From Camillea tinctor (lineage: Eukaryota > Ascomycota > Sordariomycetes > Xylariales > Xylariaceae), in the NCBI GenBank assembly GCA_022578605.1, contig MU394056.1, positions 62,001 through 126,000 of the forward strand: a stretch of DNA of 64,000 bases. Direction: 5' to 3'. Positions within the stretch are counted from its first letter, which is position 1. Each line of letters opens with the position of its first letter. Under the pieces are notes generated by a model. It was not told where the DNA came from. It worked only from the letters and a program-made list of their open reading frames with translations, and did no database searches. Both the position numbers and the translations under genes were made by a program. Shown here piece after piece: positions 4,046 through 48,300 of this stretch.

Positions 4046-4789
4046 TCAACTCTGGACATATAGGCAACTCACCTGACCATCGACCTTATACCAGTACCAT
4101 ACCTGCTGCCTAGTGCAGCTGACAGGCGAGCGATCGCAGTCGTTCACGAAGAACTTAACCATCTCCTCGAACTTGGCCTTCGTGAAGGCGCGGTCGGGAA
4201 TCGCCGTAGTGCCGACGGCGAACCCGACGATCCACTACAATAATGGGAGTTAGTAACTGCCATATTGTGTAACTTTTTTACTTTCGGGGCCGTTGTCTCA
4301 GGGGCCAAAAGTCGTACAAACTCATACGCTTGGCCATGATAGGCAACTTTGACTCCCGGACCGGGCTGAGATGGATCAAAAAGGGGGGGATAAATAACTC
4401 CGAAAATTACTTACGTGGCCGCTGGTGCTGTACTCGAACTGGCCGTCCTTGGTCGTCTGCTGTGCGACGGCGTCGATCATCGACGCGACGTAGGGTTCCG
4501 GCCACCATTCGCTGATCGTGCAGGAATACCCGGGTAGGTCGAATAACGGACCGCCCATACATACTGAGCTGTATGTCAAGTGCAGCCGGACCCACCAGTA
4601 GCTGAGCTTGGTCTGGAAGACACACTCCGGAGGCACGTCGTCGAGACCAAAGCCGTGCTTCCGGTCGACAATGCCGCTAGACGTCGCAATGGCGCCGGTG
4701 GTGTTTCTACTTAGGAGCGTGGGCATGGCCAGTAGGGGTGTGGCCAGAGCGGATATAAGGCCCGTGGCCACGAGAGTGAGGATACGCAT
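4046..4789 (-). CDS. Small secreted cysteine-containing protein, unknown function
   Basis: Exon 1 runs 4789-4415 and exon 2 runs 4234-4046, joined in phase 0 across a 180 bp intron, giving about 187 residues. The start is the ATG at 4789 because it opens directly into a clean signal peptide (MRILTLVATGLISALATPLLA). The mature part has several Cys (PPEC, SVC, YSC, NDC, SC) that could pair, and it is rich in Trp and Tyr. No known domain is recognised. The last exon may instead end at a GTGAGT donor near 4073 and splice to an acceptor near 3983, which would change the final residues. The intron is an introner-like element, related to one in the gene at 45.4-48.5 kb. Size and secretion fit an effector-like or cell-surface role, but that is inference only. 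Confidence 0.7.
4235..4414 (-). mobile_element. Introner-like element acting as the intron of the secreted-protein gene
   Basis: This 180 bp intron has GTAAGT at its donor, TTACTAAC as branch site and TTGTAG at its acceptor. Along its whole length it matches the 174 bp intron at 47158-47331 (shared blocks TCTCAGCCCGG, CCGGGAGT, TCATGGC, ATGAGTT, GAGACAA, AGTTAC, ATTGTAG). The host genes are otherwise unrelated, so the similarity belongs to the intron itself. GTCTC/GAGAC-type complementary blocks inside could fold into a hairpin. Confidence 0.85.
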
Positions 4790-5726
4790 TGATAGTCGGG
4801 GAAAACAGCGACAGAATCCAAAAGTATTCACAAACTTGGTCTCAACTATAACTCAGCAGCCTCGCTCCTCCGAGAGTCGACTCTACTCAGAACGAGGAAC
4901 TTCCCATCTTCAAATAGTTCGTAGGGACAGCTCACTACGTTGGTCCATTCTAGTAGAGCACATCATCGGAAGCTGTATTATGTACTCTATCCGAATGAGG
5001 GAGGCTCAATTCTTCATTCCAATAACGCAGGAATGGAGTTGAGGTTATATGGATCCAGCTCGGTCTCACAAATGAGGTACGTTTATCGAAATGGAGACCC
5101 AGCATAACGGCCGCAATACGTTCTGTTTGCTGTTTGCCTTCTGCTGAACCAAACCTGTGGGTAATGCATCGTGGATCTCGTCGTCCGTGGTAAGGAAGAG
5201 CCTCATAACTACCTACTAGATTCAGCATGCGAGAGCGGGCCTTTGTGGCTCCTCAAGACAAAAAATGTTTACTGGATTTAGTGAGGCTATTTTATCACAG
5301 CTTATATTTCTGTCTCTCCCACCGGAATTAGAAGCTAGGATAAATCTTACCGCATCCCGGCGATCCCGGTTTCACAGATGATCTTCTTCATGATGGCTTG
5401 ACGTTTCCGCCTTTTATGATATCAGGCTTGATCTGGACTCAAAGATCATCAGCTAAAATTCAGCTGATCATGGAAGATAGCAGTAACCCGAATAGCTTGG
5501 TTCAGGGTCTGGGTACGGTACGCTTACTGGAACTCGCAATTAGCTTTTCCAACAGGGGCAATCTAACAGGGACAGCTCCGACCATTTAAGCTTATGAACG
5601 ATGGTATGTCGGAGTTTAGTGCTGGAGACGTTGCTTCAGTCTAGGCTCCGACGATGCATAGCTGCATGTAGAAAAACGAGAATGTGGTTATTTACCAGGT
5701 CTATTCGGCCCTTGCCAAGATGCGGG

Positions 5727-6142
5727 CTAGACAGCATCCTGCTTGGAAGAGGAGCCACCCCGCAAATTAAGGTGAATCCCCAAACCAATACCCCAATCTT
5801 CAGATGAAATCCCCAAGAAAAGCACGGCCGAATTACCCCACAGTCTCTCCATATTCGGCCCGTAACGAACAACTCCAAGGCCGGGGGTCCAAGGTAGACC
5901 GGTGAGGTTTCTCGTAGCGCCTTCGTTTCCAAGGTCTTCGTTAAGACCTTTAGGGTACAGCGTCGTAGTAGTACCACTATCAATAAGTGCACATGTCGAG
6001 CAGTCCACCTCGGTGGCCTGATGAGAGTGGAGATGATCGTGGATGAGCTCACGCTTATAAAACCAGCCTGGGTTCCCTTCCTGCTCGAGGACTGGACTGA
6101 GCTGGGCTGGGTTGAGTTTAAACTGATCCGTCTTATCGTCAA
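5727..6142 (-). pseudogene. Possible aspartyl-protease-like C-lobe remnant
   Basis: An open frame antisense to the glucoamylase promoter contains CALIDSGTTTTLYP, which resembles the second catalytic Asp motif of pepsin-like (A1) proteases (Asp-Ser/Thr-Gly-Thr within a hydrophobic context). Upstream, the frame runs into the antisense of the glucoamylase leader, and downstream it stops at 5727 without the usual C-terminal part of the family. If real, it is a fragment truncated on both sides. A chance match is quite possible. Confidence 0.2.
6056..6062 (+). promoter_or_regulatory. Putative TATA box of glucoamylase gene
   Basis: TATAAAA lies about 85 bp upstream of the glucoamylase start codon, a usual distance in filamentous fungi. 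This is position and sequence evidence only. Confidence 0.35.
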
Positions 6143-6144
6143 AA

Positions 6145-8337
6145 ATGACTGGACTCGTTTTCAAGGCCATCGCGAGCCTAGCCGCCGTGGCTACCGTTGG
6201 GACAGCTAGTGTTATCGACCCACGGAGCTCTCTTAATGCTTTCATCCAGAAACAGCGAGCTGTATCTCTCCAGGGGGCATTGAGCAACATTGGTCCCAAT
6301 GGTTCCCAAGTACCCGGGGCGGGAGCAGGATACATCGTAGCAAGTCCATCAACAACCAACCCCGACTGTGAGTATGATGTCCTAGGATTAGAATTCACGG
6401 CACGTCTGACTGAATCATGAATAGACTTCTATACATGGACGCGCGATGGAGCGTTGACAATGAAGATGATCGTCGACGAATTCATCCTAGGGAAGAAGGA
6501 CCTTCAGATATATATCGAAGACTACTTGCACGCACAGGCCGCACTGCAGACAATCACTAACCCCTCAGGGACATTCTTACCTTCCGGAACAGGGCTAGGT
6601 GAGCCAAAATATAAGGTGGACGGGACACGGTACAACGGAGCATGGGGAAGGCCGCAGAGAGATGGGCCAGCACTCCGTGCTATTGCTTTAATCACCTATA
6701 GCAATTGGCTCGTCGCGCATGGCCAGAAGGCGAGAGCGAAGACTGTGATATGGCCGATCATTTCGAACGATTTGTCCTACATTGGTCAATATTGGTATGA
6801 TGCTCTCATGAACTTTGCTAAGATTCTGGGAGCTGAGAACAACTTAACTAATCCTATAATCTATCGAATAGGAACTCTACCGGGTTTGACCTATGGGAGG
6901 AGGTTAATGGATCTAGCTTCTTCACGACGCAAAACCAATATCGAGCTCTTGTTGAGGGAACTCATCTGGCAACCGCTCTCGGTGTTAATTGCACGGGCTG
7001 TGACCAAGCCTCCGATGTTCAGTGCTTCCTGCAGCAAGCATATTGGAACGGAGAATATTTCGTGGCCAATATCAACATTGATACTGGACGGACCGGGAAA
7101 GATGCCAACTCTATCCTGGGCCCCATCTCAGTTTTCGACATTAATGCCAAATGCGATGATCTGAGCATTCAGCCATGCAACAGTCGTGGCCTGTCAAATT
7201 TCAAGGCCCTCATTGACTCGTTCCGCAACGCCACTCTGTACCCAATTAACAAGGACATTGCCAAAGACAAGGGAATTGCTGTCGGCAGATATACCGAAGA
7301 CGTGTACTTTGGAGGAAACCCATGGTATGCCTTGAATCCAATCCAGGAATAAAAACCCCTAGGAGACAGACACTGACAGTCGCGCAGGTACCTTATCACA
7401 GCGGCCGCAGCAGAGTACCTCTACGACGCTGTAGCGCAGTGGAAAGTTCAGGGCTCCCTCATCATTGACGAAACCTCTATCGCCTTCTTTAAGGACATAT
7501 ACCCCAGCGCCCAGGCCAAGACGTACAAACGCACAACGCCCGAGTTCTCCCGCATCCTCAGCGCCATCACCGCCTACGCCGACTCCTTCGCCGCCGTCGT
7601 TCAGCAATACACGCCGCAGAACGGCTCCCTATCCGAGCAATTCAACCGCACCGCACCGGGAGCTCCAGTCTCGGCACGCGACCTCACCTGGTCCTACGCG
7701 GCCTTCGTGACGATGGCCGAGCGCCGCGCCGGACAGTTCCCGCCCTCCTGGGTGCCGGCAGACCCGCACCACCCGCCGCGCGCGGAACAGTGCGCCCCGG
7801 CCTCGCCGCCCAAGGGCGTCTACGTCCCCGCCATCGCGGCGGGCGCACCGAACGTGACGGCCACATGCACATCGACGGTGCTGTTCCAGGTCAACGCGTC
7901 GACGTACTACGGCGAGAACGTGTACGTGGCCGGCTCCAGCACGGATCTGGGGGCCTGGGATCTGGGGAATGCGTGGCCGCTCGACGCTACAGGATACACG
8001 GCTGAGAGGCCCTTGGTGAGTAGTAGTGTTATTGAATTTCTTTATTCTTTTTCGTTCTTGAGTTAGGAGAAGTCCATGGAGAGTGTGCTAATGTTGACTT
8101 TCTTCCGGTTACTAGTGGACTGGCCGAGTAGCGATGACGGCGGGCGAGACGGTTACGTACGCGTACGCTCGCATGGAAGACTGCGATCAAGAACCCATCT
8201 GGGAGACCGTCAACCGGACACTGGTAGTACCGGCGTGCAACGAGGCGGATTCTGGAGAGATACGGCTCGAGACGGACGATCAATGGACGGGTCCTTTGGG
8301 AAGCAGTGGAGAGTGTCCCGGGTCAGGGACGGGATAA
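6145..8337 (+). CDS. Glucoamylase, GH15 with C-terminal CBM20
   Basis: Five exons are resolved: 6145-6367, 6425-6794, 6872-7324, 7388-8015 and 8116-8337, giving about 631 residues. A signal peptide (MTGLVFKAIASLAAVATVG) is followed by the GH15 catalytic domain, with TWTRDGAL, GRPQRDGPALRA, FDLWEEVNGSS and the SARDLTWSYAA block. The catalytic acid is Glu207 in WEEV. The catalytic base is Glu432 in GSLSEQF, placed by its 17-residue distance to the Trp of LTWSY, as in the Aspergillus enzyme. After a short linker comes a CBM20 starch-binding module (TYYGENVYVAGSSTDLGAWD). The enzyme releases glucose from the non-reducing ends of starch and is secreted. The linker is much shorter than in Aspergillus niger. 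All splice joins restore conserved residues (Y75, W198, W349). Regulation by carbon source is likely from the family but not shown here. Confidence 0.96.
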
Positions 8338-10120
8338 GATATTACGTAGGTTGATGTATAGGTTTCTAGCAGAGGAGGAATAAGGGATGGATATACTTGT
8401 ATGTGTGCAATGTTGAATATGAACTATGTATTCCTATTTATAGGATAGTATATATGTAGTAAGAAGTATTTAACGAGAAACATGAGAAGGGATGAATAAT
8501 AATACCTAAGGGATAGTTCAACTAAGTATTATGTAACCTAGGTTTGTTTGCTATACGGAAAGAACCATATGCAGGTGTGTATTAAGGTTTGGTGCCATGC
8601 ACCTACAACCACCTTACATCTACCTATCTATGTATCCATGCACTAAGTGTACTCATATATTGGTTGATACTTCTCCCTTATAAGGGATATGTTAATTTCT
8701 ATTTAGGTATGTATCCGAATACTTCTTACTGCATGAGCCATTTAGAGCAATAATATTCCATTGTTAGAACTAGATAAATGAACGACAACGGCAGGTAGTA
8801 GTTCAGGTGAACGAGGTTGCAGACGGCTACGTAGGTAGGTGTGTAGGTAATGTAGGTAGTTACTACTATGTAGGTAGGCTTGCTAAGTACCCATGTATGT
8901 ATGTATGTATGTATGTAATCGGAGGGATACGATGACCAGGGGGTTAAAGTTTTTAGCCACGAGGTCAAAAAGCTTAAGCCATCACTTTTTAACCATAGGG
9001 TTAAATTTTTTAACCCCCTCCTCAGCTAAGCCAACGTTAACCTTACGTTTATTAACGTATAGTTAATAAAAAGTTACAAAGCTTATATTTACTTAGGTTA
9101 GCTATATTAATATATTGAATCGGCGTAAAGTTAACGTAAAGTTAACATAAGCTTTATAACCCTACGTTAAGCCTACGTTAAGTGTTGGTTGTAATAGGCA
9201 TACTAACATTAAGCATACGTTTATAAGTATTATATACTACTATAGTTACCAACTATAACATATATACTTATATACGCTAATATCTCTAACTATATACATT
9301 AACGTTTCTAATCGTAAGGTCTTAGCATTGGCTCAACTAAGGAAAAGGTCAAAAAATTTGACCCCCCTGGTCATGTGTATACTCTATGTAATCGTAGGTA
9401 GACAGATAACTGACATGGGGGGCACCGTTGGTCAAAGCAGGTCTCCCCTTTGAGCAATTCGTGTTACCCCACCACTGGAGTACCTAGGTAGAAAGAAAGC
9501 CTAGTCAGCTAGTGTAGTTAGATATTTGAAGGTTGTCCCTCCCCCCCCCCAAAGCTCCGATTTGATAAGGCCCTGACCCTCTTTTATTTTCCCATGCCTT
9601 GCTGATCTTTAAAAACCCCACACCGGCCTACATATATACTACTCACAGGCTGTCACTTACATCCTACTTAGTACTTTATCCTCCTACTTATGGTTAGGAA
9701 GGTGTGGTTAGTTGCGTCTATATTACTTGCCTACCTTATGTAACTCTACGCTTTTGCAACCTTTAAACCTTTTCTACCAACCGAGTCTGCAAATGCACAA
9801 TATTGACCTGCTTCTTGACCTGCTTTGACCTTTGCCACCATCAGCATCTCTTCATTGTCCTGATTCATGTCTTTGTGGCTTATAACTTGCATTACCGACA
9901 ACATACATACATCCAACATAGCAATTCTTATAACTAACCTACATTGTTAACCCATTCTTATTTTCCACTCGCATCCATCCATCAATTTATTTACACATTC
10001 TGCCTTGTCTTTCTTGTTCCCTCCCTCTTCTCTCCTCCCTCTCCTTCCTCTTCTCTTTCCTCTGTTACTAGATCCCCATGCGACAGTAAAATCAAAAATA
10101 AAATAAAAACCCCAGTCACC
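8338..10120. other. Intergenic, AT-rich with inverted-repeat element
   Basis: This holds the glucoamylase 3' flank, dense TAGGTAGG/TATG simple sequence (8600-8920, including ATGT repeats at 8893-8916), the AT-rich TIR element at 8933-9373, a C10 tract near 9540, and CT-rich probable 5' leader sequence of the F-box gene at 9990-10080. No further gene is supported. Confidence 0.6.
8933..9373. mobile_element. AT-rich element with terminal inverted repeats (MITE-like or decayed transposon)
   Basis: The left end TGACCAGGGGGTTAAAG and the right end read in reverse (TGACCAGGGGGGTCAAAT) form imperfect inverted repeats about 25-30 bp long. The 441 bp between is strongly AT-rich, with repeated GTTAA/TTAAC and ACGTTAA words, and codes for nothing. 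No clear target-site duplication is seen. The AT bias fits decay by repeat-induced point mutation, but that is inference. Confidence 0.5.
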
Positions 10121-13100
10121 ATGGCCACTTCCGCTGGCATCTTCAACCTGCCTGAGGAGATCCAGAACGAGATCTGCAGTCATGTAAGTAGGAATTCCGA
10201 CTACCATCGGTATATTTGCCTACTTTCTTTCCTTCCCTAGGCTAATCCGGTTCGTACCCTCAGTGTTCGCAATGCGATCTGATCTGCCTTTCGCTTGTCT
10301 GCAACCGCTTCCGCGAGCTCGCTGCCGCTCAGCTCTATCGCAATTTCCATATCGTATTCCCTGACGAGGACGACCCTTGTTTCGACAGCCCCATTGACGG
10401 TCTCGCTGGAGGTCTCGATACCTTCGTCACGAGCGAATATAATTATGCGAAACACCTCCGAGACCTGTCTCTAGACACGCTTAGCGCTGGCGATAAGGCC
10501 GAGGTGGCTTATAAACCGTACCTGGCTAGTGTAAGCTGTGGCAAATTCATGAATACACGTAAGGTTTTCTACTATTCTTTCCTTATAACCTCCATGCTGA
10601 CTTTGCGCCCGCCTAGTGCTGCTTCTTACGTTACGGAGAGCCAAGTCACTCGATACTTTCAGGTGGAATATTCGGGTGGAATTAAGTCGGCCTGTATACA
10701 AGGCCCTTCATGCCATTCGCTCTCTCAGGAATCTCCATCTTCGACTGCAGGCTGGTCCGTCTCTGTACGAAACCCCACCACCCCTGCCTTACGTCACCGT
10801 GCCGTATCACGTAAACTCGACGACCTCTTCTTCAGCGCTACCATGGAGCCCCCCGGAAGGGTCTGTGATTTTTGGACCCCCACCTCCGTTCCTGGCACCT
10901 CTTCCGACTTATAATAAGCCCCCTCCCCGAAGCCGTCCCTCAACCAAGTCTTCTAGTCACAACGAACCGCCGACGATCTCGGGATTCAAAAATCTTGAAA
11001 ATCTTAGCGTCCTAGATATCGACAACTTAGACATAATAACCGAGATAAAGGTCTGTGTGCGGAATTCAGCGTCGACGTTGAAAAAGCTGAAGCTTTCTTT
11101 TTCCGACGCATTGGCAACACAGGCTCGAAAGCCCTGTCAAGACACGGTGGAACCCGAAGAATCAGATCCTGAAGATGATTTTCAAGTTGTGCCACTACCC
11201 AATGCGGTTAACTTTGAGGCAAGCGGTCCTGCTAAAGTCTACCGCGCCCAGGAGGAACGTAAGGCGCAAGAGGCTGTTCTAGGGCGTGTTTTTGAAATTG
11301 AACCATATCTAACCAAGACATGGAATGCTTCCAAGGAAGCACTGAAGAAGACTAAGCAAGAACTCGAAAAAGCAAACAGCCGAGGAAACATTGCTGATGT
11401 CGTCGAAAATGTGACGAAGACTCTGATGGACAAGGCGGAAAACACCGATGAGTTAAATACACTCGATCCGCAAAAGATGCTAGATATAATCATGAAGGCA
11501 GCGAGAGAACGCCTAGAATCACAAGTCCCTACGGAAACCAACGCAGCTTCGTCATCTAAAGAAGTGGTGCCGAGTGCAACTTCTGTAGACAGTTGGGACG
11601 ATAGAATCGCGACTCCTGCTACAGATGAAAACCACCCTTCAGAATGCTCAACTTACAAGCGCGAACTGAGTAATATAGCGAACAAAGATGAAATGAAACC
11701 TGAAGACATCGACATCGCAGCTCCTGAAGAACAGCTATTCATCGAGACTCAGGAGGACCAAAACAACAATGAGACTATTGCTGAGTCGTCACCCGCAAAA
11801 ACGCCAGTTATCTCTACAAAAGGGGGGAGCACACCTCTCCTCAATAATGAAGCAGATGGTGCAGCTGTGGCCAACCGGACCTCGCAACGCCATAATTTTG
11901 ACCGCCTTAACACAAAACTGCTTGATCTTGAAGAACAGGCCGAAAAGGTGGCACGGACTAGAGAACCGCTCAATATTTCCGACGAGGAGGCTGATGCCCG
12001 CCTCAGGGATGCCCAGACGCGCCTCGAATCCATTAATCGTGAAATGGTGGACATTAAGCATGAGATGAACATGATTGAAGCCGAGGCAGAAGATGCCGAC
12101 GTGCAAACTAATCAATGTCGTGGGGGCGACGAAAAAGATGAGCTTCATCGCCGCGTCAACGAATATGCTAGGGGGACGAGAGGAATCGGGCTCCGCTCCC
12201 TCAGTCTCCATCTTATACCAATCAAGGCTTCTGTCTTAGGTAGGGCCATTGATCTTCACATGCTAAGGAGGATTACTCTCTTAAATGTCGGGTCACAGGC
12301 ACCATTTTGGGTGTTAATGAGCAAAGAGAATCGGCTTAAACCATTACAGCTGCGCAAGATATTTACCGATAATGTCTCTTTGCAGTTTTTGCATTTCATC
12401 TCGGAGCTAGACTGCGTCCACGAACTCTTCATGCTGGAGCGAATGTCGAAGTACAAACCCGAGAGTCTTGCACCCAGATCGAAGACGACGACAGAGCAGA
12501 TCAGGAAGCTTGTTCTGAGGAAGCACATGCCCGGTCTGAAACGACTGATGATCAAGAACAAGGCAGACAGCTCGTGGGACGTGGATTCTAAGACGACACA
12601 ACTAATTTGCAGGCGAGGAAAGGCCCTCGAGGAGCTAGCGGTGACCATGGGAATGGATGCGGTGGTAAGTGTCGCTCATTCGTGCCGACTATATATGAAT
12701 GTAAACTAACGAGCACAGCATGTATTCATTCAAAACATAACTGGTCTGGTGAATCTTCGGGCTCTGCAACTTATTTCATTCCGACACGAAGATACTTGTC
12801 TTTCGGTGATGCGTGAGACACGTCGTTTCATAGTTGATGCAGTGTCGCATCATCCGCAGCTCAAGCTGGAATACTTGTGCATGGTGGATGACGAACGTGT
12901 CACGAGGATTACTCGCAAGCCGCGGACAAGTAGGAAGGCCAAGAAAGATAAAGGGAAGGGCAAGGGAACTGGTCAAACCGGACTCAACTACAGCTGGACT
13001 GGCAGTGGGTCTTTCCCAGTATCCGGAACTGTTGGGTGGGATACCGAAAGTGATAGTGACGAGGACGACAGTGAGCTTCCAGGAATGGAATTGGAACTGA

Positions 13101-13174
13101 ACGAGAATGTCCCATATTATGATATTTGGGGCGTTCGGATTTTCAAGAAGGAGACGGTTGCAGGACGATTGTGA
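10121..13174 (+). CDS. F-box / leucine-rich-repeat-like protein
   Basis: Four exons are resolved: 10121-10183, 10264-10558, 10617-12664 and 12719-13174, giving about 953 residues; the ATG lies in a CACCATGG context. Residues about 8-45, FNLPEEIQNEI followed by CLSLVCNRFRELAAAQLYRNF, have the shape of an F-box that binds Skp1 in SCF ubiquitin ligases. LRR-like stretches (IRSLRNLHLRL, FKNLENLSVLDI, LKKLKLSF, LRSLSLHLIP, LKRLMIK) lie on both sides of a long charged region. That region, about residues 280-560, includes a predicted coiled coil (LRDAQTRLESINREMVDIKHEM). The tail has a basic patch (KKDKGKGKG) and an acidic patch. Substrate-receptor function is inferred; the target is unknown. The large low-complexity insert inside the repeat domain is unusual. 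Confidence 0.75.
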
Positions 13175-14506
13175 GAAAAGAAGGGGGAAGGGACAGAAAA
13201 AAAAACCAAGAAAAAAAAAAAAGACAACTTCGTTGGATGAAGGAAAATTGGGCGAAGAGCTGGCTTCTTCATTTAAGCATATGGTTCATCTATACAGGCG
13301 CGTGTGTGGTCACTCGGGAATACCCTTATTCATAGTGTCTGTGTGTGGTTAGGGGGGATATGGATGGAGGTTTATGAAGTATGTAGTATGGTAGCTGGCT
13401 TGTTTGACCGGCACCCTCTAGGGTGCTGCGCTTTGATCAGCGAATGTATCAGTAATAAGCAACACCAGCGTCAGTACTTAGTTTTATGTATATAGAATAA
13501 AACTAATGCACTTGGTAGGTATGCTCAATTGTATAAAATAGATTTTGACTAGGTATTTGATCAATACCTGAATCATATACTTACTTACTTATTCTCTATA
13601 AGTACACCAAAATCTGAGTATCTCCATGTTGCCCAACTAGCGTTGTTAATTACTGCTACATTCACTAAAGCAATAAATGAATGATGATAGAGCAATTACA
13701 CTGTACTATGAAAATGATGCCAAGCTTTGTAGAGAGAGGGGACTCCCGAGATTCGATTGCATGTTAGAGGGGTGATCCTGTGGTGGAGCAGGAGGAGGGT
13801 CAATTACCTAGGTAGTTTGACGTGATACTTAATCTATGGGGGGAGGGAGAGTGGGATTGAAGCCAAGACCCCCCGCTCTTCTATAAGTAGGTACCTTGGT
13901 ATAGGTATTTAAGGCTGTGCCTGTGCCGCGCACCATTTCCCCTTCCAAAGTCCTACGCAGATATGCAACCTTAGGTTGAAGTTAGGTAAGTACCTACTCA
14001 AGTTAAGTGACTTGGTAATTAGGGACATTTAGGGGTTTAAACTACCTACTAAGTTGCAGCATGTTAGGTACTACGTTAAGTTATATACTTATACTTATAC
14101 GTAACCTACCTACATGAATTCTACATGTGATGCATGTTGTGTAGCATAGGAGAGGAGCTGATTACACTCCGCCCCTTCCCCCCCGATTATCACTGTCACC
14201 GTCACGGGTATAGTATAGTAGTACAGTACAGTATAGTACAGTACAGTATTACTTTTTTATTAGTATTTTTCTTGTTCTGTCCTGTCAAGTCAAAACCATT
14301 TCGTGACCAACTGCCATTCACTCTGTCAGGATTCTCTCATTAAACCAACAACAACATCCATCTACACTTAGTAAATCCCAATCGTTTATACATAACTATA
14401 TTGTCCTTCTCTTTTTCTTCTTCTTCTTCCTCTTTTTTCCCACTCTAATCTTTCTTCTATTTATTTATTAAATAATAATCGTGGTGTCTTGTTTTTGGTT
14501 TCAACT
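13175..14506. other. Intergenic
   Basis: This holds the F-box 3' flank and the leader of the transglutaminase-like gene. A/G-rich sequence (13190-13230), TAGGTA/TACCTA repeats with a TACCTAGGTA palindrome at 13805-13814, a CAGTA/TATAGTA repeat at about 14210-14250 and a CT-rich leader at 14403-14460 are visible. No gene is supported. Confidence 0.55.
14210..14250. repeat. CAGTA/TATAGTA microsatellite
   Basis: Alternating TATAGTA and CAGTACAGTA units run for about 40 bp just upstream of the transglutaminase-like gene leader. Confidence 0.7.
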
Positions 14507-16522: not shown

Positions 16523-17390
16523 AGAGATGGGAGGTAGAGAAATAAGGGAAAAGGGGGGAAGAGTGAAAAAAGGGGTAAAGGGGGAAAAGTAAAAGGAGGG
16601 AAAGGGGGTTGAAGATAATACATATGGATAAGGTATAGGTTATAGGGTCCAAGGATAAGTACCTGGGTATATATATATATAATATTTGTCGGATTTTGGG
16701 AGAGGAGGTTGGTCTTCAGGAGTGGTACTTCTCTGACGTGATACGAGGAGTTAATGACAAAAAATATATATTACGTCCATTGCCTCTTCTTTGGAAAGTT
16801 CAGTAATCTTTGTGGTCAGATAATACGCGTGTTTCCATCACTATCGGATCTCAACTAGCTAGGTGTTAGACTATCTTCAGCAGGTCGATGCTGAAAAGGG
16901 GGTAAATCTGACCCGCAAGGAAAAGAGCAGAGAAATGATCAATGGATAATAAATCCGTATAATCCACGTTATAATGTCAAACTGTAATATCAGATGATAT
17001 AGATATATATATAATCCAGGACAGAAAAGGGGGCGAGGGGTGGTATATTTACCAGTGTAAACCCAGCATATGATCATAGCCTGGAAGCTTTTAAGGGGGG
17101 CAGCAGCACCATGACACGAATCATCTGTCACTACAGGTATAAAAATAAGCATTCATTGACTGTTTTTTATTTAAATATATATACTGCATATAGACCGTAG
17201 GCATTCCTTTACATGCTCTCAAATATATACAAATGACCATGACCTAAGCGGCTTACCCCCTCCACCCCAACCCCTTTACATACCGAGTTGGGGCATCCTC
17301 GAGCTTTTGCGAATAGCCTCTCCCGATCTCACGTGCGATAGATACATATTGTCGTAACTGTTCGTTTACTTATTTTGTTTCATTTATTTC
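16523..17390. other. Intergenic between convergent genes
   Basis: This holds the 3' flanks of the transglutaminase-like gene and of the Zn2Cys6 gene reading toward it. Purine-rich sequence (16525-16615) and TATATA runs (16672-16680, 17000-17013) are visible. No gene is supported. Confidence 0.55.
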
Positions 17391-36987: not shown

Positions 36988-38866
36988 CTCGGGGGAAATA
37001 ATATACCTAATATTTGCTCAACGAGCTTCGAATATATATACATATAATTAATTCAAGTGAGAATCAATTGCAGAAATGAAGCAATTGAGTAGGAGTGACT
37101 TTAAGGGAGCATTGTCATCACCCAGTGGAACTTCCAATGGTGGACGACTTACAACTACATGGCTTTGTGGCGGTGCCATAGTGGCTGACATAAAAAGGGG
37201 CAGGCTGAGATAAGGTACATATGTACCTTAGGTAATCTTCAATTGCTTGTACCCGCACTACCTACATAGTAGGTACCTACTGTCATAGGTCATTTAAAAA
37301 CATAAAATAAGGGCCAAGGTACCTAGTATTAAGCAGAGAGAAACTATTGCTTACGGGGTACTCGGTTACCTTCCTGCTACCTAGGTACGTACCTACATAG
37401 GAGCTTGGTGGGGTTATGTACACAGAAGCATAGTCAGGGTCTCAGAGAGAGTACCTAGGTACATACTGTCGATAGTCCTGGCAACCCTTCACAACAAACT
37501 CAGGCGGGAGATTATCAACAATATTTGCAATTATTTATTTTTCACACACAAATGTCACAAGATACATTTAGTTGGGTGGTAATGAGTGGCACTTTGAGTG
37601 CATGTGTATTGGTTTGATATAGTGATGTGGTATAGTGATGAAGTCCCCTAATATCCAATTCCAATCCATTCCCTCTATCCCAGTAAATCCCATTTCCATT
37701 TATCCAAGCCCTAACTTCCAAAATACCTATTCCCATTGTTTATCCTCCAATATTGTCTTCCTAGCCTTGTCATGCGACCCTTGCTTTCTGCCTTTGATGA
37801 TATTGCTATGTGATATAGGTTGGTATATGTGTGTGTGGTAAGAGATGCATCTCATGATTGACCTCGATATTGGCTATTCTGGTAAAATAAAAAGTTAGTT
37901 GGAAGTGTAGATAAAAAAATTATATAGGAGATTTATCTACCTTTGATGAACCTCTCGAGGGTTGTTTATCCATTTTATGTGGGGGGTTTTTTTTTTGTTC
38001 AGGTACTTTGTAGTAGCTAGGTAGGCAGGGTCTAGAGGACTTGTAAATGTGAGCAAGGCCGAGTAAAAAAGTAGAAGAGAAGAGTAAACAAACCAGGCAG
38101 ATTCTATGAGCATCACGATATTCCGTAGCAGCTGACCAGTAGTAGTGACAAGCTTACCCTGCTATGTCAACAAGTCACCACAACAGCAGACACTATTACC
38201 AAAACAAACCATCCTGGGCCAGATTCCGTTCCTGAACTCCACCAAGACCGAGGTTTTCCAGACATTAAATCAAGACTGTCATGCAAATTGCTGTGCTATT
38301 GCACGCTTGACTGATAGACAGAAGTGAAGTCGCAAGCGTAGAAGAGCCATTGTGCAGCCCGAAGGACGCTGGAGTTCTCGCATGCTTGCCGTACTTCCCA
38401 ATTGGAATGGCTTCGCAGTACATAGGAAGTGTGGTCAAGGGAAGGTGATGTAGTGGAAAGTGGGCTGTGGGGGGAATGACAAGTGACATAGAGGGAAGTG
38501 TATGTGAATGTGTACCATGGGTGGGTAGATAGGTGTTCGAGCAGCGACAGCTAGAATGGCATGGTTAAGTATTTCAGAATGAGGCTGCATTGGGTATGAT
38601 GGAAGCTTACCACTGCTGGTGGGTTCAGCTGGTATGAATTCTTGTGGTAGAAATAATTTTTGTTTTGTTGTGGTTTGTTTTATGATTGTTCTGGTGTTGG
38701 TATGATGATAGTAGGTAAAGACCATGATGATGGTGGAGATGCATGATGATATATGAGTGTGGTAGTGGTAGCAGTAGATGCTAATGAATGTGGTGTGTGT
38801 GAATGTGTGTGGTGTGTGGGAGGGAAGAGGAATGGATTGAGAGGGAAGAGAGGGGGGGAGCCCTGG

Positions 38867-39321
38867 TTTTTATACCACCTGGGGGAAGAGAATTCCTGGC
38901 CCCACAATCAGTAACGGTCCAGCCATGCCTGATTTGGAATTCCGGGGTACTTGGAAAATCTGGGGTACAATGGAAAAGTACCGATTGGTTATTGGCTCAG
39001 CCCTACAGTAGAGCCGCATTTCCACCCGACAAACAAACATTTTCTGATTTTTTGATTGGCCCGCTGCTAGTAGATCACAGATCAGACCCACTTCCCAATT
39101 GTCCCCCCTCTATTGTGTAGGTACGTAGCTACGTAGACTTCCTATTGTTCCCATTGTTTCAACAATAGAAAAAAAAAATCAAAATCAGATTTCCACGGAA
39201 CCAGATCAGGTTTTCCACGGAGCTCCATACCCAAGTACCCAGGTACCCAAGCAGGGGACCACTTCGTCATTGAATGCTACAATCACTCCCAGCCCGTGGC
39301 CTCCCCTCCCCCGGTATTTAA
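38867..39321. promoter_or_regulatory. Putative bidirectional CCAAT-rich promoter
   Basis: A minus-strand TATAAAAA (38867-38874) and a plus-strand TATTTAA (39315-39321) face away from each other. Between them lie three ATTGG boxes (inverted CCAAT) at 38984-38988, 38991-38995 and 39055-39059. On each outer side the transcribed strand would be CA- or CT-rich (38860 down to 38700; 39320 to 39400), as fungal 5' leaders often are. No convincing protein lies downstream on either side. Confidence 0.35.
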
Positions 39322-41841
39322 TCCTGTGCACTACCTCCCACCCTTCCCACTTCCTCTCCTCTTCTTTTTTCTTTTCTTTCCTTTCCTCCTCAGCTCTCTT
39401 TGCCTTTTGGCTTAGATCATGTGTAGTATCTGTTCTTTTCAGTTTAATATCTGGAAGTGTCACATAGTGGCACCTTTCTTTTATTATTCCTATTTTTCTT
39501 CTTCGGATGGCTGCGTCCTCTGCACTTGTGCATGATCAGCTTTCACTGTGTCCCTGGTATTACACTGCCTCCAGGTGATGCGAATATTTACACTGCTTTC
39601 ATTACCATCGCTAGCTTGTCTAGGTTGTAAAGAAGGTATCATATATTCACCATGTGGTGTCTGGCATCTGTGTTCTAGTACAATCCTACGATAGTAATCT
39701 ATTCTAATTCAACCTGATCATAATATATATTCATGATTGATTTCATTCAGGCGCTTTTTATCTTTGGCCAGCCAAAATAACTTCGAGGGCCGTGTCGAGA
39801 TGCCCTGAACAAGGCAGTTCAGCGCTCGTAAGAGACTCGAGAATACAATGCTTTATGGGATTCTGTAGTACATATCTAAGAAGCGACAGTGATCTACGTA
39901 ATATTTTGTCAGTACGATGTTTCTAAAATGAATTCTCTCCGTGCAGCGTGCAAGTCCGTACCCCCCATCATCTCTAGAGTAGCATTCTCTCTACTAAAAA
40001 TACAGAAAATAGCGAATACATCCTACCCAACGAGCTTCGATGACTGCCCTCGTTGTCCTGGAGAAAGACACGATGTAACCGGACCCTATATAATTAAGGT
40101 AGGTGTTCCAAGCGTTGTACAAGCATAGTTTGGTCTGGCTAAGGTCCTGTCGGGAGCTTGACTGTTAATTATTCTGCTTGCTGCGTGAAGATGTTGTCAT
40201 ATGAAGATGGCTTCGCATAGAACATGTCAACCGCAAAAGGAAGCTACATCGATGGATCAATAACTACTCTTAGCATTTATGTCTAAATTCTAGATCGCGT
40301 CTTCCATGCCCTGTCGAGCGTCGACGGGAATATTGGGCTATTATTTTACTATCATGGCCTTCCCAGCTACTTCCTCGGAGAAACATTGTGCTAAACATCA
40401 ATCACTCTTCTCATTGAATAGAATGCAGTAAATCCCCTTGGAATAGGCGCTACGAGCTACAGGTGCATTTCAGCATTGACCTCTTGGATAACGAAGCCGC
40501 ACTACGCAAAAGGTTTGATAACTCTGACTGACTGTTTTTGTACCTGCTACCTAGGTAACATTCATTGTCCTCTTAGCAAGGGAGGAGTAGTGGCGTCAAT
40601 AGCGCCATCACGTTGGCAAGCCCTGGTTCCTTCATCGTCGCTACCCGTCCCATTTGACCCATTGAGGTCCATAGCCGAAGCAAGAAGCGCATCGAGCGAG
40701 CCATTATCGATGGGAACCTCCCATACCATGCTTACCTAGGCTGTCGCGGGGCGCCAAGAAGGAATGTAAGTGATCACGATGTTACCATGCAGAAGGGTAG
40801 ATATAAACAACGACCTATGAAACGATTGAATATACCCGAAATAATTTATTTATCCTCTGAAAGATTCATACTAATATATATCTTGGGTATAGTTAACTAG
40901 TCCTCCTGACGCACACCCTGGCATCTTTATAGCCGACCTTATCAATATAGAGATCTAGCTTGGCCACACCGAGACCACGAAACTCTCTCAGTCGATTCCC
41001 TAGTAACCTAATCCCCACCGGGCTCTCCGACCAGATCGATTCTCTCCAGTCCGTGACCATAGCGTTCCAAGATCCTACCATATGCCACGGCCGACAACTA
41101 AGTGTCATCAGCTAGGAGCTCCTAGTGGAAACCATAATGACCTAGAATAACTGCAGCGGCTTTGTCCTGGGTTCGTGGCACTCGGGAAGTTTCTTGTAGG
41201 AAACTAGCAAGGTCACATATTCCCCTTGAGAGCGGGCATATAAGTTTGACTGTTTCAGGTTGAATGGACATCCTATACATTCATCGATTCAATAACCGTA
41301 TTCCCACCTTCGTTAACATCCAAAGGGGATAGCACTCCTGTGTCTGTCCTCAAGAGCACCGCCCGCATGCTCCGGATAAGCAAGTCTGGAGAGGAGCGGG
41401 AGAGCTCATATTACTTCATCGGCACATCTGGATACTAGACATAACTATCCTAAGTTAATACTGTTCCAAATTATCCATGGTGACGACTTACCTACCTTAT
41501 TGCGTGCCTGATATAATACTCCTCCCCCCTTTCTTTTTTTCCAAGCTCTCGTGGTAAGCCACTACCATTGGTTCTACCACGGGCCACAGCATGTGACTGG
41601 GCCAGTGCTGTAAGTTTCTCGTGCTATAATCTCGAGTCTCTAATGCACCCCTTTTCACTACGACCCCGAGCTTCGACTCGGTTGATACTCAGTGAAGGAT
41701 AATCCCAGATTTTAATGCTTAGATCACAATGATAAAAGAGAGGATTCATAAATCTATATTTAAATCTCTATTCAATGTGTTCTATTTATATCGTGGATAG
41801 AAAAAAAAATTGAAACATGAAAATATACATGATTTGGAGTT

Positions 41842-41913
41842 CTCCGAATCAGGGAATCGAACCCTGGGCTCCGGAATGAGAATCCGGAATGTTAACCTCT
41901 ACACCAATTCGGA
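41842..41913 (-). tRNA. tRNA-Glu (anticodon CTC)
   Basis: Read on the minus strand, the 72 nt fold into a full cloverleaf: acceptor TCCGAAT/ATTCGGA, D arm containing GTGTAGAGGTTAACAT, anticodon stem CCGGA/TCCGG with loop TTCTCAT (anticodon CTC), and T stem CAGGG/CCCTG with the TTCGATT loop. The discriminator base is G. The B-box GGTTCGATTCC is intact. There is no intron. A poly-T run lies about 20 nt downstream on the minus strand (plus-strand A9 at 41801-41809), suitable as a Pol III stop. Confidence 0.95.
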
Positions 41914-43555
41914 TATGAACGTTACACTCCTCCCTGGACTTATGGCTTGACAGTTGGTAATCAGGGGATCATGGGCAAACAGGAAGGTGTAACAGTGTAG
42001 GGAAGGATCTAGCCCAGGTACTTACTTTACTGGATGTTGACAGAAGCAGCTACCCGTAGGGACATATGTACGATGTACAGTGAGTACACACTAACACCTA
42101 CATCAGGTGATTTAAGTGGTCGTACACACAACCTTGTTTGTCGATGGAGGCATTCCCTTGGGTATCTAAATCTTTAATAACATGTACCTTGAAATAATGG
42201 ATGCATATACATGTTTAGCTTTTCTGTCATATTGAAGAGAAAGAATTGGTTCATTGATATTGTACTTAGAGATACAGTGATCAGTTGACATTTATATATA
42301 TCAAATCTATGAGACAAGATCAAGGTTACATATAGTACTACCAAATAGTGACAAGACCTCAAATATCGACTAACTACTATGTAGTACAAAGTATATTATT
42401 AGTGGGTTAAAACAGAGGTGCCTAGGCATTACATAGAGTGTTTGCTGTTTACTCGTACAAGTTTCGGCGTATCACTCTTGTAGTCACCAAGAACTAATCA
42501 CTCTGAAGTTTATGTACCGACCATAAAATGATTTTATATGATAAATTGGTGCATATCTATGATATACCTGTAAGTATAACTATAGAGGTATTCGGACCCA
42601 CTCGGATAGTGCTGACCATCCGCCGCTCGCATAAGACTATCCGGGCTAACACATTACTGATCAATTGGGAGACATGGAGTCATTGTCAGAGGCTCATATT
42701 GGAATACTCATTTGGGCGAGCCATGATACTCACTTCTAGGGCAACATCATAATAGCTTCTGCTAATCACAGATATGAAAAACCACAGGTTGATGATGTGC
42801 ATTCATGGCTGATACTCCGAATTTGTAAGCCGGCCTCGCTCTTTAGACTATAGAATGGATGCGCGGTACACGAACCCCGGTATATTCATGCACTAGACAG
42901 GGATAGTATAGCTAAGTAATAATCTATTCGGGCTAGCAGAGAACTCTATAGGCTGGGGTCAATTAGTGAGGTCATCGTATAAAGTCCGGATATGTCTCGC
43001 ACGAATATAGCCTGACCGCTCAACGTCTACAGATTAGAGACACAACTAAATGGCCGAATTAGGCAATTTAGAGTGGGTGGGCATGAAGTCAGCACTCCGG
43101 GGTTTCGCGTTCGGATAAGGCGCATTGCCATCTTCAATATGCCGATCATCGTGGAGTATAGCAGCTAGCTCGCCTCGTACCAAGCGTACAGATCGGAGTA
43201 ATACCGTTGCGCGAGCACCATACTATTAGAGTTGAACGAGTTTTGTTATGGTATATCCATTGCGAGTGTGATTGTCTATTCCCAAGGCATCACAAATTCG
43301 TGCACCGTCTTCTCTTAGCTAAGGAGGTCCCGCGCTCGGAAGACCGAGCTAGCATCGTCTGTCGGTGGAGTAGAAAAAGCGAATACCTAAGATGTAGTAC
43401 ATGTATAAGCCTAGGTATATATAAATAGTCAAGACGACTTCACATGGTGTAGACTGAATTATCTATCTTAATCAGACTTCATCACATAGAATACCTAGTT
43501 ATACGATTTCAACAGACTAAAAACCTATACAAGAAAAACTAACAGCAACTCCATC

Positions 43556-44988
43556 ATGCCTAAGCCCCATGTTCTCATCGTTGGCGCCGGCCTTGGCGGC
43601 CTGACTCTTGCTCAAGTTCTGCGGAAGCAAGGTGTCTCCTTCGAGATCTTCGAACGCGATCCGTCCGAAACGTCGAGAACCCAGGGATGGTCGCTCTCTA
43701 TACATGCGTGAGTAAACATTAATACTTTATTATCAGATACCGCAGAATACCCAGTCATGTATGACTTCAGCTAATATGTCTTATCAGTGTCCTCGCAGAC
43801 TTAGTAGCATCCGTTCCAGATGATATGCCCCCATTCCGGGAGTCCGTCAGTGCTTTGCATCCAATCAAACTGGAAGATCAGGTAGTATTCTACATAGACG
43901 GGGAGCGCTTTGGGGCTACGGATAGTTCGGAGAGACCTTTCGTACGAGCAAACCGCCAACGGCTGCGGTCCTGGCTGGCGACCAACATCGACGTCCAATG
44001 GGGCAAGCATCTGAACAAGGTCGAGCAGAGCGATGACAAAGTCACCCTATTCTTCCAGGACGGGTCCAGCGCATCGGGAGACGTACTCATAGGAGCTGAC
44101 GGCACTAACAGTGTGGGTAAGTGCCAGTGTTCCCCCTTCCCCCCTTTCCTTCTTTTCACGTCAGACGTCTGCGGGCTGTTGATTCCAATACTAATAACCC
44201 TGCCAGTGAGAGAGAATATCCTTGGCAAAAGCAACAAAGACATCCTCAAATACATCCCCATCAGCACCATCACCGCCGAATCCATAATTCTTACCGGCGA
44301 GGCCTTCGCACGACAGCTCGAGGTAGCCCACAGCTTCACCTTCGTGAACATCGACGCGGACCGCATCATCGTGCAGGGGATCGTGCGCTCGCTCCCGGCG
44401 ACCAGCGAGACCGAAGCGGGCGGGGAATTCCACTGGATCCTGATGTGGCGGGACCCGCTGATGCAGCACGTAGAGCGCAGCCCCGTCGACGCGCTGTCCG
44501 CGGCGCAGCGGCTGGAAATCGCCCGCTCCATGACCAAGTCCCTGCCCGAGCCGCTGACGCACCTCCTCCGGCACACGCGCCCGGAGCACGTCCGGCCGCA
44601 CGGCTGGGCCGTGCGCGACGCCGTCATCGACGCCCTGCCCCTCTCGCGCGCCACGCTGCTCGGCGACGCCGCCCACCCCACCTCGCCCTTCCGCGGCGAG
44701 GGCGCCGTCAACGCCATCCGCGACGCCATGAACCTGGGCGCCGCGCTCGCCGACCTGAGCCGCCGCCACGAAGCGGGCACCCAGGCCGTGCGCGACGCGC
44801 TCGCGGAGTATCAGGCCGAGATGGTGCCCCGTGGCGTGAACGTCGTGTCCGGCGCGAGGGCCCAGTTCGGCTTCTTCCGCAACGAGTTCCAGAAGGTGCG
44901 CATCATGGGCCACCCGCCTGAGAAATTGCAGTGGGAGAAAGTGGAGGTTGGATCGGAGGGCGTGAAGGTCACGCCTTTGGAGGGTTAG
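43556..44988 (+). CDS. FAD-dependent monooxygenase (salicylate hydroxylase-like)
   Basis: Three exons are resolved: 43556-43707, 43788-44116 and 44207-44988, giving about 420 residues. The N-terminus holds the Rossmann dinucleotide fold HVLIVGAGLGGLTLAQ with GxGxxG at residues 10-15. The DG motif region reads GDVLIGADGTNSV. The FAD-ribityl GD motif is LLGDAAHPTSPFRGEGA, at about residues 312-328. This order defines group A flavoprotein hydroxylases, which use NAD(P)H and oxygen to hydroxylate aromatic or polyketide-like substrates. There is no membrane anchor or signal peptide, so a cytosolic place is likely. The third exon is strongly GC-rich compared with the first two. No backbone biosynthetic gene lies nearby, so a catabolic or tailoring role cannot be told apart. 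Confidence 0.93.
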
Positions 44989-45383
44989 ATGAGTCGGGGA
45001 TAAAATACGACTCTAGATATAATAGAATGCGATTCAGATTTCGGAGAAGAAAGATATTTAGGATATATGTGTCTACCAGTTCTTAGTGCAATAGATAGCA
45101 AGCGAGTCTTCGTATGCATTGGTTGTTATAGAAATCTGCATCTCATAAATTACCACCAAAGTCTTATCCGGGAGGTAGATGAAGAACAAGAGTGCTTCGT
45201 TGTCTAATGCAAATTATATGTACCTCTATCTTGCTAGTTTTGATCGTATGTTTCGTGTGCTACTAGTATTTCTCCTTATATGATTTTACATCAGAGGCTT
45301 TGAGGACCTCTTTAGCCGCAATCAAGTCAAGACAGCACTGTAAGATAATTTAACCGCCTTGTGGTGTTTGTTCCATATAAGGA
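44989..45383. other. Short intergenic region between convergent genes
   Basis: This is AT-rich 3' flanking DNA of both neighbours. Nothing is recognised in it. Confidence 0.55.
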
Positions 45384-48300
45384 TCAATTCGAATCGTCGG
45401 ACGATTCGGTATCCGACATCAATCTCTTCTGTCTCCTTCTCACTCCCACCGCGCGCCCCAGTATGTCCAGATCTAGGGCCACGGTCTTTCCGGCTTCATT
45501 ATCAGCCATAGAAAGTTTCTTCGGATCTCTCAGTCCCCTGATGTACATTTCGTCCAGCACGTCGGCAAGCTCACCAGTATGCGCTTGCGTGTATGCGAGC
45601 CAGGGGTCGTGAACCTTGGAAAACTTGGTGCGACGGATGAAGACGGTCAGAATCCCGAAGAACAGCACCAAGTGTGCTCCCATCATACTACACACTGCCA
45701 CAAGACCGTTCCAGCTAGTCGGGACCTGTACAGACTCCCAGAGAACGTAGGTCGAATTGCTGAAGGTGTTGAAGAACTGTAGGTTGTCGTAGTAATAGGA
45801 CTGGTAAACAAGAGTCCAGAAGGCCTGGAGCGCTAACGCAGGGTCGCCAGGCGAGGCAAGTATATCCGTCAATATCTTTGTATACACTGGGTGGAAGTAG
45901 GCCACACCATCTGCGTATTCCGGTATGCAGCCTTCACACAGCTTGTATGTCATATGTCTGTCGTTGAAATACCTACCCATGGGGTTCCCTCCCAACGGCC
46001 GGGTCATTAAGGTCGAGCCGATCCATAGCTGACCCTTATCGCCTTCTGTTGGCTTCCCTGGTGGGATGTCAAAAGCTAGAACGCTCCTTTCAACAAGGGA
46101 TGTTTTATTCTCAGTAGCGCCGAGCCAAAGCAAAAGGTTCGTTGAGTTTAAGGCCTTTGTATCATTGTCCGTAACCAATATCTTCTCGACGAGGGGCGCA
46201 TTAGACCAGGCGTTGATGAGTTGATATTTTGGTTCAAGTATGGTAGAACATAGAGTGATTTGCCACGCATAAGGCCAGTTCCGGTATTTGATAAGCGTCC
46301 ATGGCGGTTTGCTATTCGTATCTATAGTTATGTTGGATTTGCTATTAATCACCCACCAGTCTGTACTGTTAAGGTGCTGACTGGAAGCATTTCCACCCAG
46401 GGATAGTAAGTTGATAAACGCAAAAGCCCGTACTCCACCATAGGAGCACATGAAGCTTAAGTTTTCTATTCCTTGGTTAGACAAGGGCGGTGATAAGGGT
46501 GGCGAATAAATGGTGCATGATAGATTTGCGCCTGTTTCTCGTGAAGATTCTAGATATGGGCTGTACTGGGCACCAGTATTACTGCTATTCGAAAACCAAT
46601 CAGCAAAATATCCATAGTAATCTTGTTCTCCATTCCCTCTGTCTACTTTGTAGCTGTCAGAAGCAACCCAGGCCTCGATTACAGCGTACCCAGGATTGTC
46701 AGACGCTCGAAAAGAGAGTTGGCGAATTATTGGCCTCACACACACAGTTGATGCGTCGATCACTGTGGCGTATCCGGTAAAGTTCCGCAGAGACTGGCGT
46801 TTCGCCTGTAGGCTTAGAGGCAAGAAAGCCCTCTTTACAAGGGAAGGATCTTGTTTTGGCATAGAAATGTTCTCGGCAAAAGGAGGATATCCTACTGGTG
46901 GCGCCGCAGAATAGTCGATATTGTTTTGTTCACTCCTTTGTCCTTGTGAATCAGATGCACTATAAAACCCCAGAGGGAAAGGTTCGGTGATATTAGTGCT
47001 AGGTATATGATCAGAGCCCAGGTCTGAAAGGAGTATCGCGGAGCTAAACTGTAGGGCGGTAGACAGAGCTGTGAGGAGGCACAGTGGTATCGCCACTTTA
47101 GCAAGCTTCAAGCGCAGCGTTGGCCTCATCATGCCTATGAAAAGAGCTGGTAGATCACTACAATATTGGCAGTCAGTAATTGCTGTATTGGGTAACTTTT
47201 TACTCTTAAGGCCTTGTCTCGGGAGTCAAAACTCCTACGAACTCATCCTAGCCATGACTGGAAAGTTTAACTCCCGGGCCGGGCTGAGACAGGCCAAAGG
47301 GGGGGCATAAACGACTCCCAAGATCACTTACTACGATATTCCATTGTTGCTCCTTTGAATCAGTAAGGTAGGGATCTCCTTAATCCCAACATAATGGTTC
47401 TCCAAAACGATCGAGGCCACCATGGAGATTGCCAGTGCTGTCTGGGTAGCCGTTGCAAATCTTATTACGAGTGAGCAACTTGCGATTACAGCTGGTAGTT
47501 TATTTTCAATGATCCAAGACCGTAAAGTTTCATTGTCTGGCTGTGTCGGCGTCACCCAGAAGGCGATTAACAGTCCAAGCGATGCTACAATGAGAGGAAC
47601 GGGAAGGAATATTGACAGAAGACCGAATATTCCAAGCCGTTCTTGGTAAGATAGCACTTGGGAAGCTTCTTGGTAGATAGGCAGTTCCACGGTTTCGTCA
47701 GTAGCATCTTCTGCAACCACCTCCTTAGACTGTTGGCCATCATTAACTCTGGGCCGAGTGCGATATAACCATATAGCGGCAATTAAGAAGACAAGAAGAA
47801 GGACTCCAGACACAGACGCTACCGCAACCCACTTTTGGTTCTGCTGTGCAGACCCCTTTGTCACATGATCTGAATTCAATGCTTCTAACAAGTTTATCTT
47901 GTCTATAGGAGCGCTGTCAATATTTAATGTTGCTGTATATTCGGTTGGGGCTGTAGTGCAATACAGCTGCCTGAGTTTCAACGACCCAGATAAAAGGTAC
48001 TTGGTAGCGCAAAATTTGTGTCTAACAGTCATTAATCCCGAGACAACTGGCCCGCTGCTGCTGATTAGTATGATGTATTGAAACTCGTATAGGATGCAGC
48101 GGTGGTAAATACCAGCTAGTGACAAGCGACTCGTCTCCACAGTCTCCGTCGCAGTTGTCGCTCGTTTGTGTACCAACGTATTGAACAATACCTGAGACAT
48201 AAGGTTGACATGAGGTGTACATTGAATGGGAGAAGGCGGTGGGATTGTCTGTCATAACACATCCTGCGATGCTGAGCGTAGGGTCGTAGGCACAGACCCA

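Follow-up and report, generated by a model that had tools for sequence, protein, structure and literature searches.

The locus and its two related introns

The DNA analysed here is a stretch of 64,000 nucleotides (nt) of contig MU394056.1 (positions 62,001 to 126,000, assembly GCA_022578605.1) from the ascomycete Camillea tinctor, hereafter called the window. Two predicted genes on its minus strand are interrupted by the introns 4235-4414 (copy A) and 47158-47331 (copy B). A first-pass annotation had described these introns as homologous, about three quarters identical, inserted in unrelated genes in different phases, and had proposed that they are introner-like elements, a type of mobile intron known in several fungi. 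A Basic Local Alignment Search Tool (BLAST) comparison within the window aligns the two introns end to end with 77.2% identity over 180 columns (reciprocal E-values of 4.6e-24 and 4.5e-24), the second-best match to the query intron being 25 bases long with an E-value of 0.02. The match ends exactly at both intron borders and the exons of the two hosts are therefore unrelated. The signals listed in the first-pass annotation are all present in both introns: the donor GTAAGT, the blocks TCTCAGCCCGG and CCGGGAGT, the branch site TTACTRAC and the acceptor ATTGTAG. The predicted removal of copy A, in phase 0, leaves an open frame encoding a protein of 187 amino acids, secreted-like by eye, and that of copy B, in phase 2, leaves one of 880 amino acids, membrane-like by eye. 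A Pfam search of these two host proteins returned no match for either, and the introns matched no Rfam family at the gathering threshold.

A genome-wide family of exact intron units

The entire genome (44,688,122 bases in 154 contigs) was searched using both introns as queries. Copy A matched 34 places and copy B at least 40 (40 of 68 candidates were scored). A pattern of 26 bases covering the 5' end, with up to 3 mismatches allowed, occurs at 82 places versus 0 for the reversed control, and a pattern of 21 bases covering the 3' end occurs at 121 places versus 2 in the control. The 82 places of the first pattern, 100 of the 121 places of the second and 57 further listed places were merged by distance, resulting in a family of at least 138 places. 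The inference of many genomic copies drawn from the two window introns was thus right in kind. Both end patterns are present in 50 merged places, from which a simple capture-recapture calculation (82 x 100 / 50) yields about 164. Since the listed places are partial and further copies lie inside some of the fetched loci, the true copy number is probably higher; a few of the one-end matches may be due to chance, judging from the control counts. With 138 places, the genome averages about 0.2 places in 64 kb, and the presence of two copies in the window is therefore above average.

A profile was run over 76 merged regions (193 kb) and gave 108 matches at E-values up to 0.01. The 76 copies retained for delineation are near full length with E-values up to 1e-8; partial, weak and opposite-strand matches were dropped and the nearest AG was taken as the acceptor of each copy. 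In these copies the repeated unit is the intron itself, from GT to AG, including both splice sites and the branch site. All 76 begin with GT, in the form GTGAGT (61 copies), GTAAGT (12) or others (3), so that GTRAGT is found in 73 of them, and AG stands exactly at the model end in 65. Their length ranges from 133 to 187 nt with a median of 174 nt. The mean pairwise identity of 46 aligned long copies is 76% and their mean identity to the consensus 85%, with three transitions for each transversion. A scan of the fetched loci for both ends produced 53 pairs (TG follows the intron in 35 and A/TG is the junction in 25, the slash marking the intron position) and also copies of 303 and 215 nt. The former (G000:C78:64141-64443, minus strand) contains roughly 120 nt of extra sequence, possibly a nested insertion. 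Introns of 59 and 95 nt retain both family ends and look like cropped derivatives; the 59-nt intron (G000:C16:486749-486774, minus strand, L054), located at an A/TG site, apparently arose by internal deletion down to ordinary intron size.

The host genes that could be named belong to unrelated families. A HET-domain gene and a polyketide synthase were recognised, the best solved relatives of the latter including lovastatin nonaketide synthase. At G000:C74:75530-76586 (L016, L050), three family copies lie inside a single gene region, alpha/beta-hydrolase-like by eye, over a span of about 1 kb, and similar triplets occur in L032 (C65) and L041 (C2).

Upon removal of the intron, at least 25 open codons are obtained on both sides in 64 of the 76 copies, and in all 64 leaving the intron in place would introduce a stop or a frameshift. 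Orientation was scored by codon usage for 74 copies, as two of the 76 lacked flanking sequence: the sense strand obtains the better coding score in 67 of them (p 2e-13) and does not in the other 7.

Target-site preference

The exon base following the intron (+1) is T in 65 of the 76 copies (86%) versus a background of 19.5%. TG follows the intron in 54 copies (background 5.9%), the base at -1 is A in 43 (background 24%) and the complete A/TG junction is observed in 35 (background 1.6%). A pyrimidine precedes A/TG at 28 of these 35 sites versus 95 of 219 background ATG triplets. The A/TG junction is commoner in long copies (29/53) than in short ones (6/23), and T at +1 is high in both (45/53 and 20/23). 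None of the 76 sites is of the AG/GY type, and at no junction does the downstream exon begin with GC or GT. Ordinary introns from the same loci and the window (n=32) served as control and have T at 6 sites, TG at 4 and A/TG at none (Fisher test for TG, 3e-8). They were obtained from 36 candidates after setting aside 4 with a family-like signature, 2 of which were of the A/TG type. This set replaced a first control of 48 introns (TG 6, A/TG 2) that was rejected because it held at least 2 cropped family members.

Fifteen additional copies, hand-picked by intron sequence alone from the 54 outside the loci already used, served as a held-out set. T is found at +1 in 14 of the 15, followed by G in 6 and by C in 7; a 5' end could be recognised in 12 of the 15 copies, and 3 of these 12 are of the A/TG type; the acceptor of one held-out copy (L114) is ambiguous. 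The T preference is thereby confirmed. The predicted junctions thus point to a preference that is T-first, of the form YA/TG, and to sites that are not random. A T-first target preference is apparently new for fungal introners, and this T-first, YA/TG preference did not turn up among the open-licence papers listed by literature searches, as judged by titles and abstract openings.

The existence of a guide inside the intron was evaluated by computing, for each intron column, its mutual information with the target bases, using 60 permutations. The best column exceeds all permutations for +1 and +2, and no column does so for -2, -1, +3 or A/TG. The internal guide was rejected as no base-pairing logic was apparent, and the signal at +1 and +2 is provisionally read as an effect of subfamily or age.

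Phases 1, 0 and 2 are represented by 37, 18 and 9 of the 64 open-frame copies, phase 1 being common. Among A/TG copies, phases 1/2/0 amount to 23/5/3 versus 185/198/75 for background ATG (p 6e-4), and this bias persists when sites with G at -2 are excluded (20/5/2 versus 128/119/63, p 0.002). The ordinary introns are distributed among phases 1/0/2 as 15/11/6 in the 32-intron control and 14/18/16 in the first control of 48. As the ordinary introns of the 32-intron control also lean to phase 1, the phase bias of the family may be a general trait rather than a special one.

Seamless insertion

The insertion sites of several copies were compared to intron-free homologues. In the best alignments shown against solved structures, the residue at the junction is free of gaps at all five junctions considered (sulfatase, short-chain dehydrogenase, glutathione transferase, amidase and polyketide ketoreductase). 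The amidase is the weakest case, with a 1-residue gap shortly upstream of the junction in its best match and a 4-residue insertion two residues downstream in the second. The Met split by the intron of the sulfatase is also Met in three arylsulfatase alignments shown. Within the same genome, the sulfatase site is spanned in 3 of 3 other matches: the closest paralogue (52% identity) and a second one display an undivided ATG, and the third CAC. In the case of the sulfotransferase, two fetched paralogues out of 4 other matches are gap-free across the site, with Phe codons, and the remaining two matches stop at or before it. All 23 other genome matches of the polyketide synthase cross the ketoreductase site in an open frame. 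At the sites examined, the intron is absent from the paralogues and distant homologues compared, which is a partial check of the ancient conserved positions that had been named as a possible refutation. The insertions would therefore be gains relative to these homologues. An element carrying an extra codon (A...TG) was considered and rejected, since no residue is added at the junctions and ATG is undivided in two paralogues.

Target-site duplications were searched in 75 copies with words of 2-6 and 8 bases at offsets from -4 to +8, using mismatched pairs of copies as baseline, and none was found above the threshold of the script. The longest direct repeat between the 15-nt exon flanks has a mean length of 3.63 versus 3.43. 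A duplication of GTG or AGTG was also discarded: it would entail the loss of a base and hence a frameshift, and no aligned duplication was detected.

The sulfatase copy (L071, G000:C77:161159-161336, plus strand) resides in an arylsulfatase host. Among solved structures, the best relatives of this host bear the chain name arylsulfatase, and we take them to be bacterial. It is possible that this is a transferred gene that gained its introner afterwards.

Predicted RNA structure

The consensus of 178 nt folds into a long hairpin at -57.6 kcal/mol. Its outer helix extends from intron position 5 to two bases before the 3' end, and the GTCTC and GAGAC blocks form opposite sides of one helix. The near-terminal inverted repeat is imperfect; helix 1, starting from intron position 5, is paired in 88% of cells. 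The named structure as a whole pairs 85.0% of cells versus 32-43% when slid along the alignment. Individual copies have a mean folding z-score of -2.5, with 28 of 46 below -2, and 37 of 46 resemble their own reverse complement more than the shuffled mean.

Annotation of the window

The features of the two introns and of their surroundings are collected in Table 1. A gene for U2 spliceosomal RNA, complete and scoring 132 bits, happens to lie in the window beside the mobile introns, as do a transfer RNA gene and a ZIP zinc transporter gene. Another ZIP gene, on contig C109, contains one introner copy or more, and a further copy is found about 1 kb away.

Table 1. Features of the two introner copies, their host genes and neighbouring genes (positions in the window)
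Feature	Position	Strand	Basis
Introner copy A, 180 nt, phase 0, exon junction CAC/TGG	4235..4414	-	sequence, BLAST, splicing
Introner copy B, 174 nt, phase 2, exon junction GTA/TGA (A/TG type)	47158..47331	-	sequence, BLAST, splicing
Copy A donor GTAAGT	4409..4414	-	read from sequence
Copy B donor GTAAGT	47326..47331	-	read from sequence
Copy A branch site TTACTAAC	4249..4256	-	motif from general knowledge
Copy B branch site TTACTGAC	47172..47179	-	motif from general knowledge
Copy A near-terminal inverted repeat, 5' arm, from intron position 5	4398..4410	-	consensus helix 1
Copy A near-terminal inverted repeat, 3' arm, 2 nt short of 3' end	4237..4249	-	consensus helix 1
Copy B near-terminal inverted repeat, 5' arm	47315..47327	-	consensus helix 1
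Copy B near-terminal inverted repeat, 3' arm	47160..47172	-	consensus helix 1
Copy A inner hairpin, 5' arm CCGGGAGTCAAAG	4347..4359	-	consensus helix 6
Copy A inner hairpin, 3' arm CTTTTGGCCCCTGAGAC	4295..4311	-	sequence and consensus fold
Host gene A, exon 1 (secreted-like N-terminus by eye; no Pfam match)	4415..4789	-	splicing
Host gene B, coding part upstream of copy B; true start maybe further upstream	47332..48200	-	splicing
Host gene B, coding part downstream of copy B	45384..47157	-	splicing
U2 spliceosomal RNA gene, complete	39390..39589	+	
Transfer RNA gene	41842..41913	-	
ZIP zinc transporter gene	1876..2925	-	

Mode of insertion and alternative explanations

The two window introns probably represent a single family of fungal introner-like elements moving via excised RNA into T-first sites. 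Their initial assignment to introner-like elements is supported by the genome-wide family and by its predicted exact intron units, to which the present analysis adds a preferred target, inverted repeats close to the intron ends and an insertion that is seamless, with no duplication detected. RNA-mediated insertion appears to be the most likely mode of spread. Copying would proceed via the excised intron RNA, the two ends of which would be held together by the long hairpin and the near-terminal stem. The RNA, or DNA copied from it, would then enter a T-first site of a transcribed gene, either by reverse splicing or during break repair, and the inserted copy would be fixed as a working intron. 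Later on, copies would drift, some would shrink and the hairpin would decay because splicing does not need it. The exact ends, the mostly sense orientation in coding sequence and the lack of a fixed duplication fit an insertion of RNA, by reverse splicing or by the use of RNA in break repair; both models are summarised in PMC8469720 and PMC12403724. The YA/TG motif is predicted by neither of these RNA models alone. If the preference belongs to the insertion itself, the point at which the inserting machinery cuts or attacks must lie in front of a T, with A/TG as the favoured position. The further proposal that these are RNA-moving spliceosomal introns with a T-first, YA/TG target preference of their own, involving a sequence-selective step with an outcome like group II retrohoming, is put forward tentatively, as something we would judge slightly less probable than its contrary.

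A number of observations weigh against the reading of the family as introners spread via their RNA. The splicing of the copies is a prediction made from sequence, and the open-frame test is weak by itself, as 63% of the copies pass it with shifted acceptors too. The control of 32 ordinary introns is small and was predicted by rule. G at +2 and A/TG, as well as A, are enriched in the held-out set, yet more weakly than in the first set. The target motif differs from the proto-splice site expected of simple reverse splicing. Many polyketide paralogues are 1-2 residues longer somewhere over the stretch compared. Repeats of at least 5 bases between the flanks are slightly in excess (14 of 75 copies versus 11.8% of random pairs), with no fixed register. 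As the closest pair is 88% identical, no very recent insertion is seen among the 46 long copies. Finally, covariation was rejected as a support for the hairpin: pairing amounts to 85.0% versus 85.2% in shuffles with no excess of double changes, and RNAalifold finds 6 weak pairs in the same alignment. A role of the hairpin must consequently be argued from the consensus alone. The earlier remark that the complementary GTCTC and GAGAC blocks suggest a folded RNA thus holds for the consensus, where they pair, and not for compensatory changes among copies, which do not exceed those of shuffles. Taken together, a symmetric consensus and no excess of pairing imply that the source was symmetric, with no sign of selection on pairing in the copies. 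A symmetry that matters for spread and not for splicing has also been proposed for Hypoxylaceae (PMC8469720).

The bias towards T, TG and A could alternatively originate from survival after random insertion, if such sites alone were spliced accurately enough. The copies that are visible are indeed those that survived, and the near-terminal stem might affect splice-site use. This explanation is nevertheless unlikely, because the preference is not shared by the 32 ordinary introns of the control, and because little or no covariation is seen between the exon bases by which the stem could be lengthened (p 0.19 for A at -1 with T at +1; p 0.03 for Y at -2 with G at +2).

A non-autonomous DNA transposon (an introner resembling a miniature inverted-repeat transposable element) with terminal inverted repeats, spliceable by chance, would account for the near-terminal inverted repeats and for a target motif, both found in many DNA transposons. 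YA/TG is moreover close to two-fold symmetric, and the slight excess of flank repeats points in the same direction. However, no aligned target-site duplication was detected at the lengths and offsets tested, both splice sites lie inside the element with none co-opted from the target, and the borders of the unit coincide with GT and AG. Transposition should also leave antisense and intergenic copies, whereas 67 of 74 copies are scored in sense in coding sequence. Taken as a whole, such an origin is rather improbable.

It is very improbable that the copies are degenerate [D1,2] stwintrons (nested twin introns), as in Hypoxylaceae and Xylariaceae, instead of an independent canonical introner. Size and internal symmetry are alike, and a long canonical sister intron (195 nt) is described in Daldinia childiae (Fekete et al., PMC8469720). 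The present copies however lack the G that must precede the internal donor, G being found at -1 in 14 of 74, and a single predicted GT-AG removal restores the frame. The 5' element of Xylaria, the one end tested, gives 0 exact matches and 20 one-mismatch places versus 5 in the control. As for the spread of an old intron pair by gene duplication without mobility, which has nothing beyond the shared sequence in its favour, it can practically be dismissed since it is already contradicted by the unrelated host families where named, by the similarity of the window copies stopping at the intron borders and by intron-free paralogues of three host genes.

Comparison with known systems

The origin of new spliceosomal introns is an old open question, in which fungal introners are an awkward case: in the sources available to us they are reported without transposon hallmarks, at sites either random or of the AG/GY type. 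In the family described here, the exact ends, the absence of detectable duplication and the sharp T-first preference constrain the inserting machinery, and the mechanism becomes testable.

Introner-like elements of Dothideomycetes (Capnodiales and relatives) have been described by Collemare et al. 2015 (PMC4457414) and by van der Burgt et al. 2012, the latter quoted here through PMC3443670 and PMC8469720. Judged by description and not by sequence, the present family is similar in consisting of canonical introns in many unrelated genes with a stable predicted RNA structure, in lacking canonical transposon character and in decaying into ordinary introns. These elements of Dothideomycetes are co-linear with transcription, to be compared to the 67 of 74 copies scored in sense here. 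They differ by their AG/GY integration preference, attributed to van der Burgt by PMC8469720, instead of which T-first, YA/TG sites are observed here. The same source describes the sites in Hypoxylon as having no such preference.

Sister stwintrons and cropped sister introns are known from Hypoxylaceae and Xylariaceae (Fekete et al. 2021, PMC8469720; 2025, PMC12403724). They share with the present family an internal symmetry, near-terminal inverted repeats close to the terminal Gs, cropped short derivatives and a seamless insertion with no target duplication, and are functional on the coding strand only. Unlike this family, they are mostly nested twin introns with an extra G and occupy seemingly random sites, PMC12403724 giving no exon bias at 288 stwintrons.

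Ascomycete introner families with neither terminal inverted repeats nor target-site duplications, as well as GC-rich insertion motifs for gene-enriched introner families, have been reported by Gozashti et al. 2022 (PMC9860276). Introners derived from DNA transposons resemble the present family by the large number of similar introns per genome and, for some such families, by inverted repeats. They differ by target-site duplication and co-option of splice sites, neither of which is detected here. Mobile group II introns insert in an orientation-specific, duplication-free and target-selective manner, and their ribozyme and reverse transcriptase need more room than units of 133-187 nt can offer; the present family resembles them in outcome.

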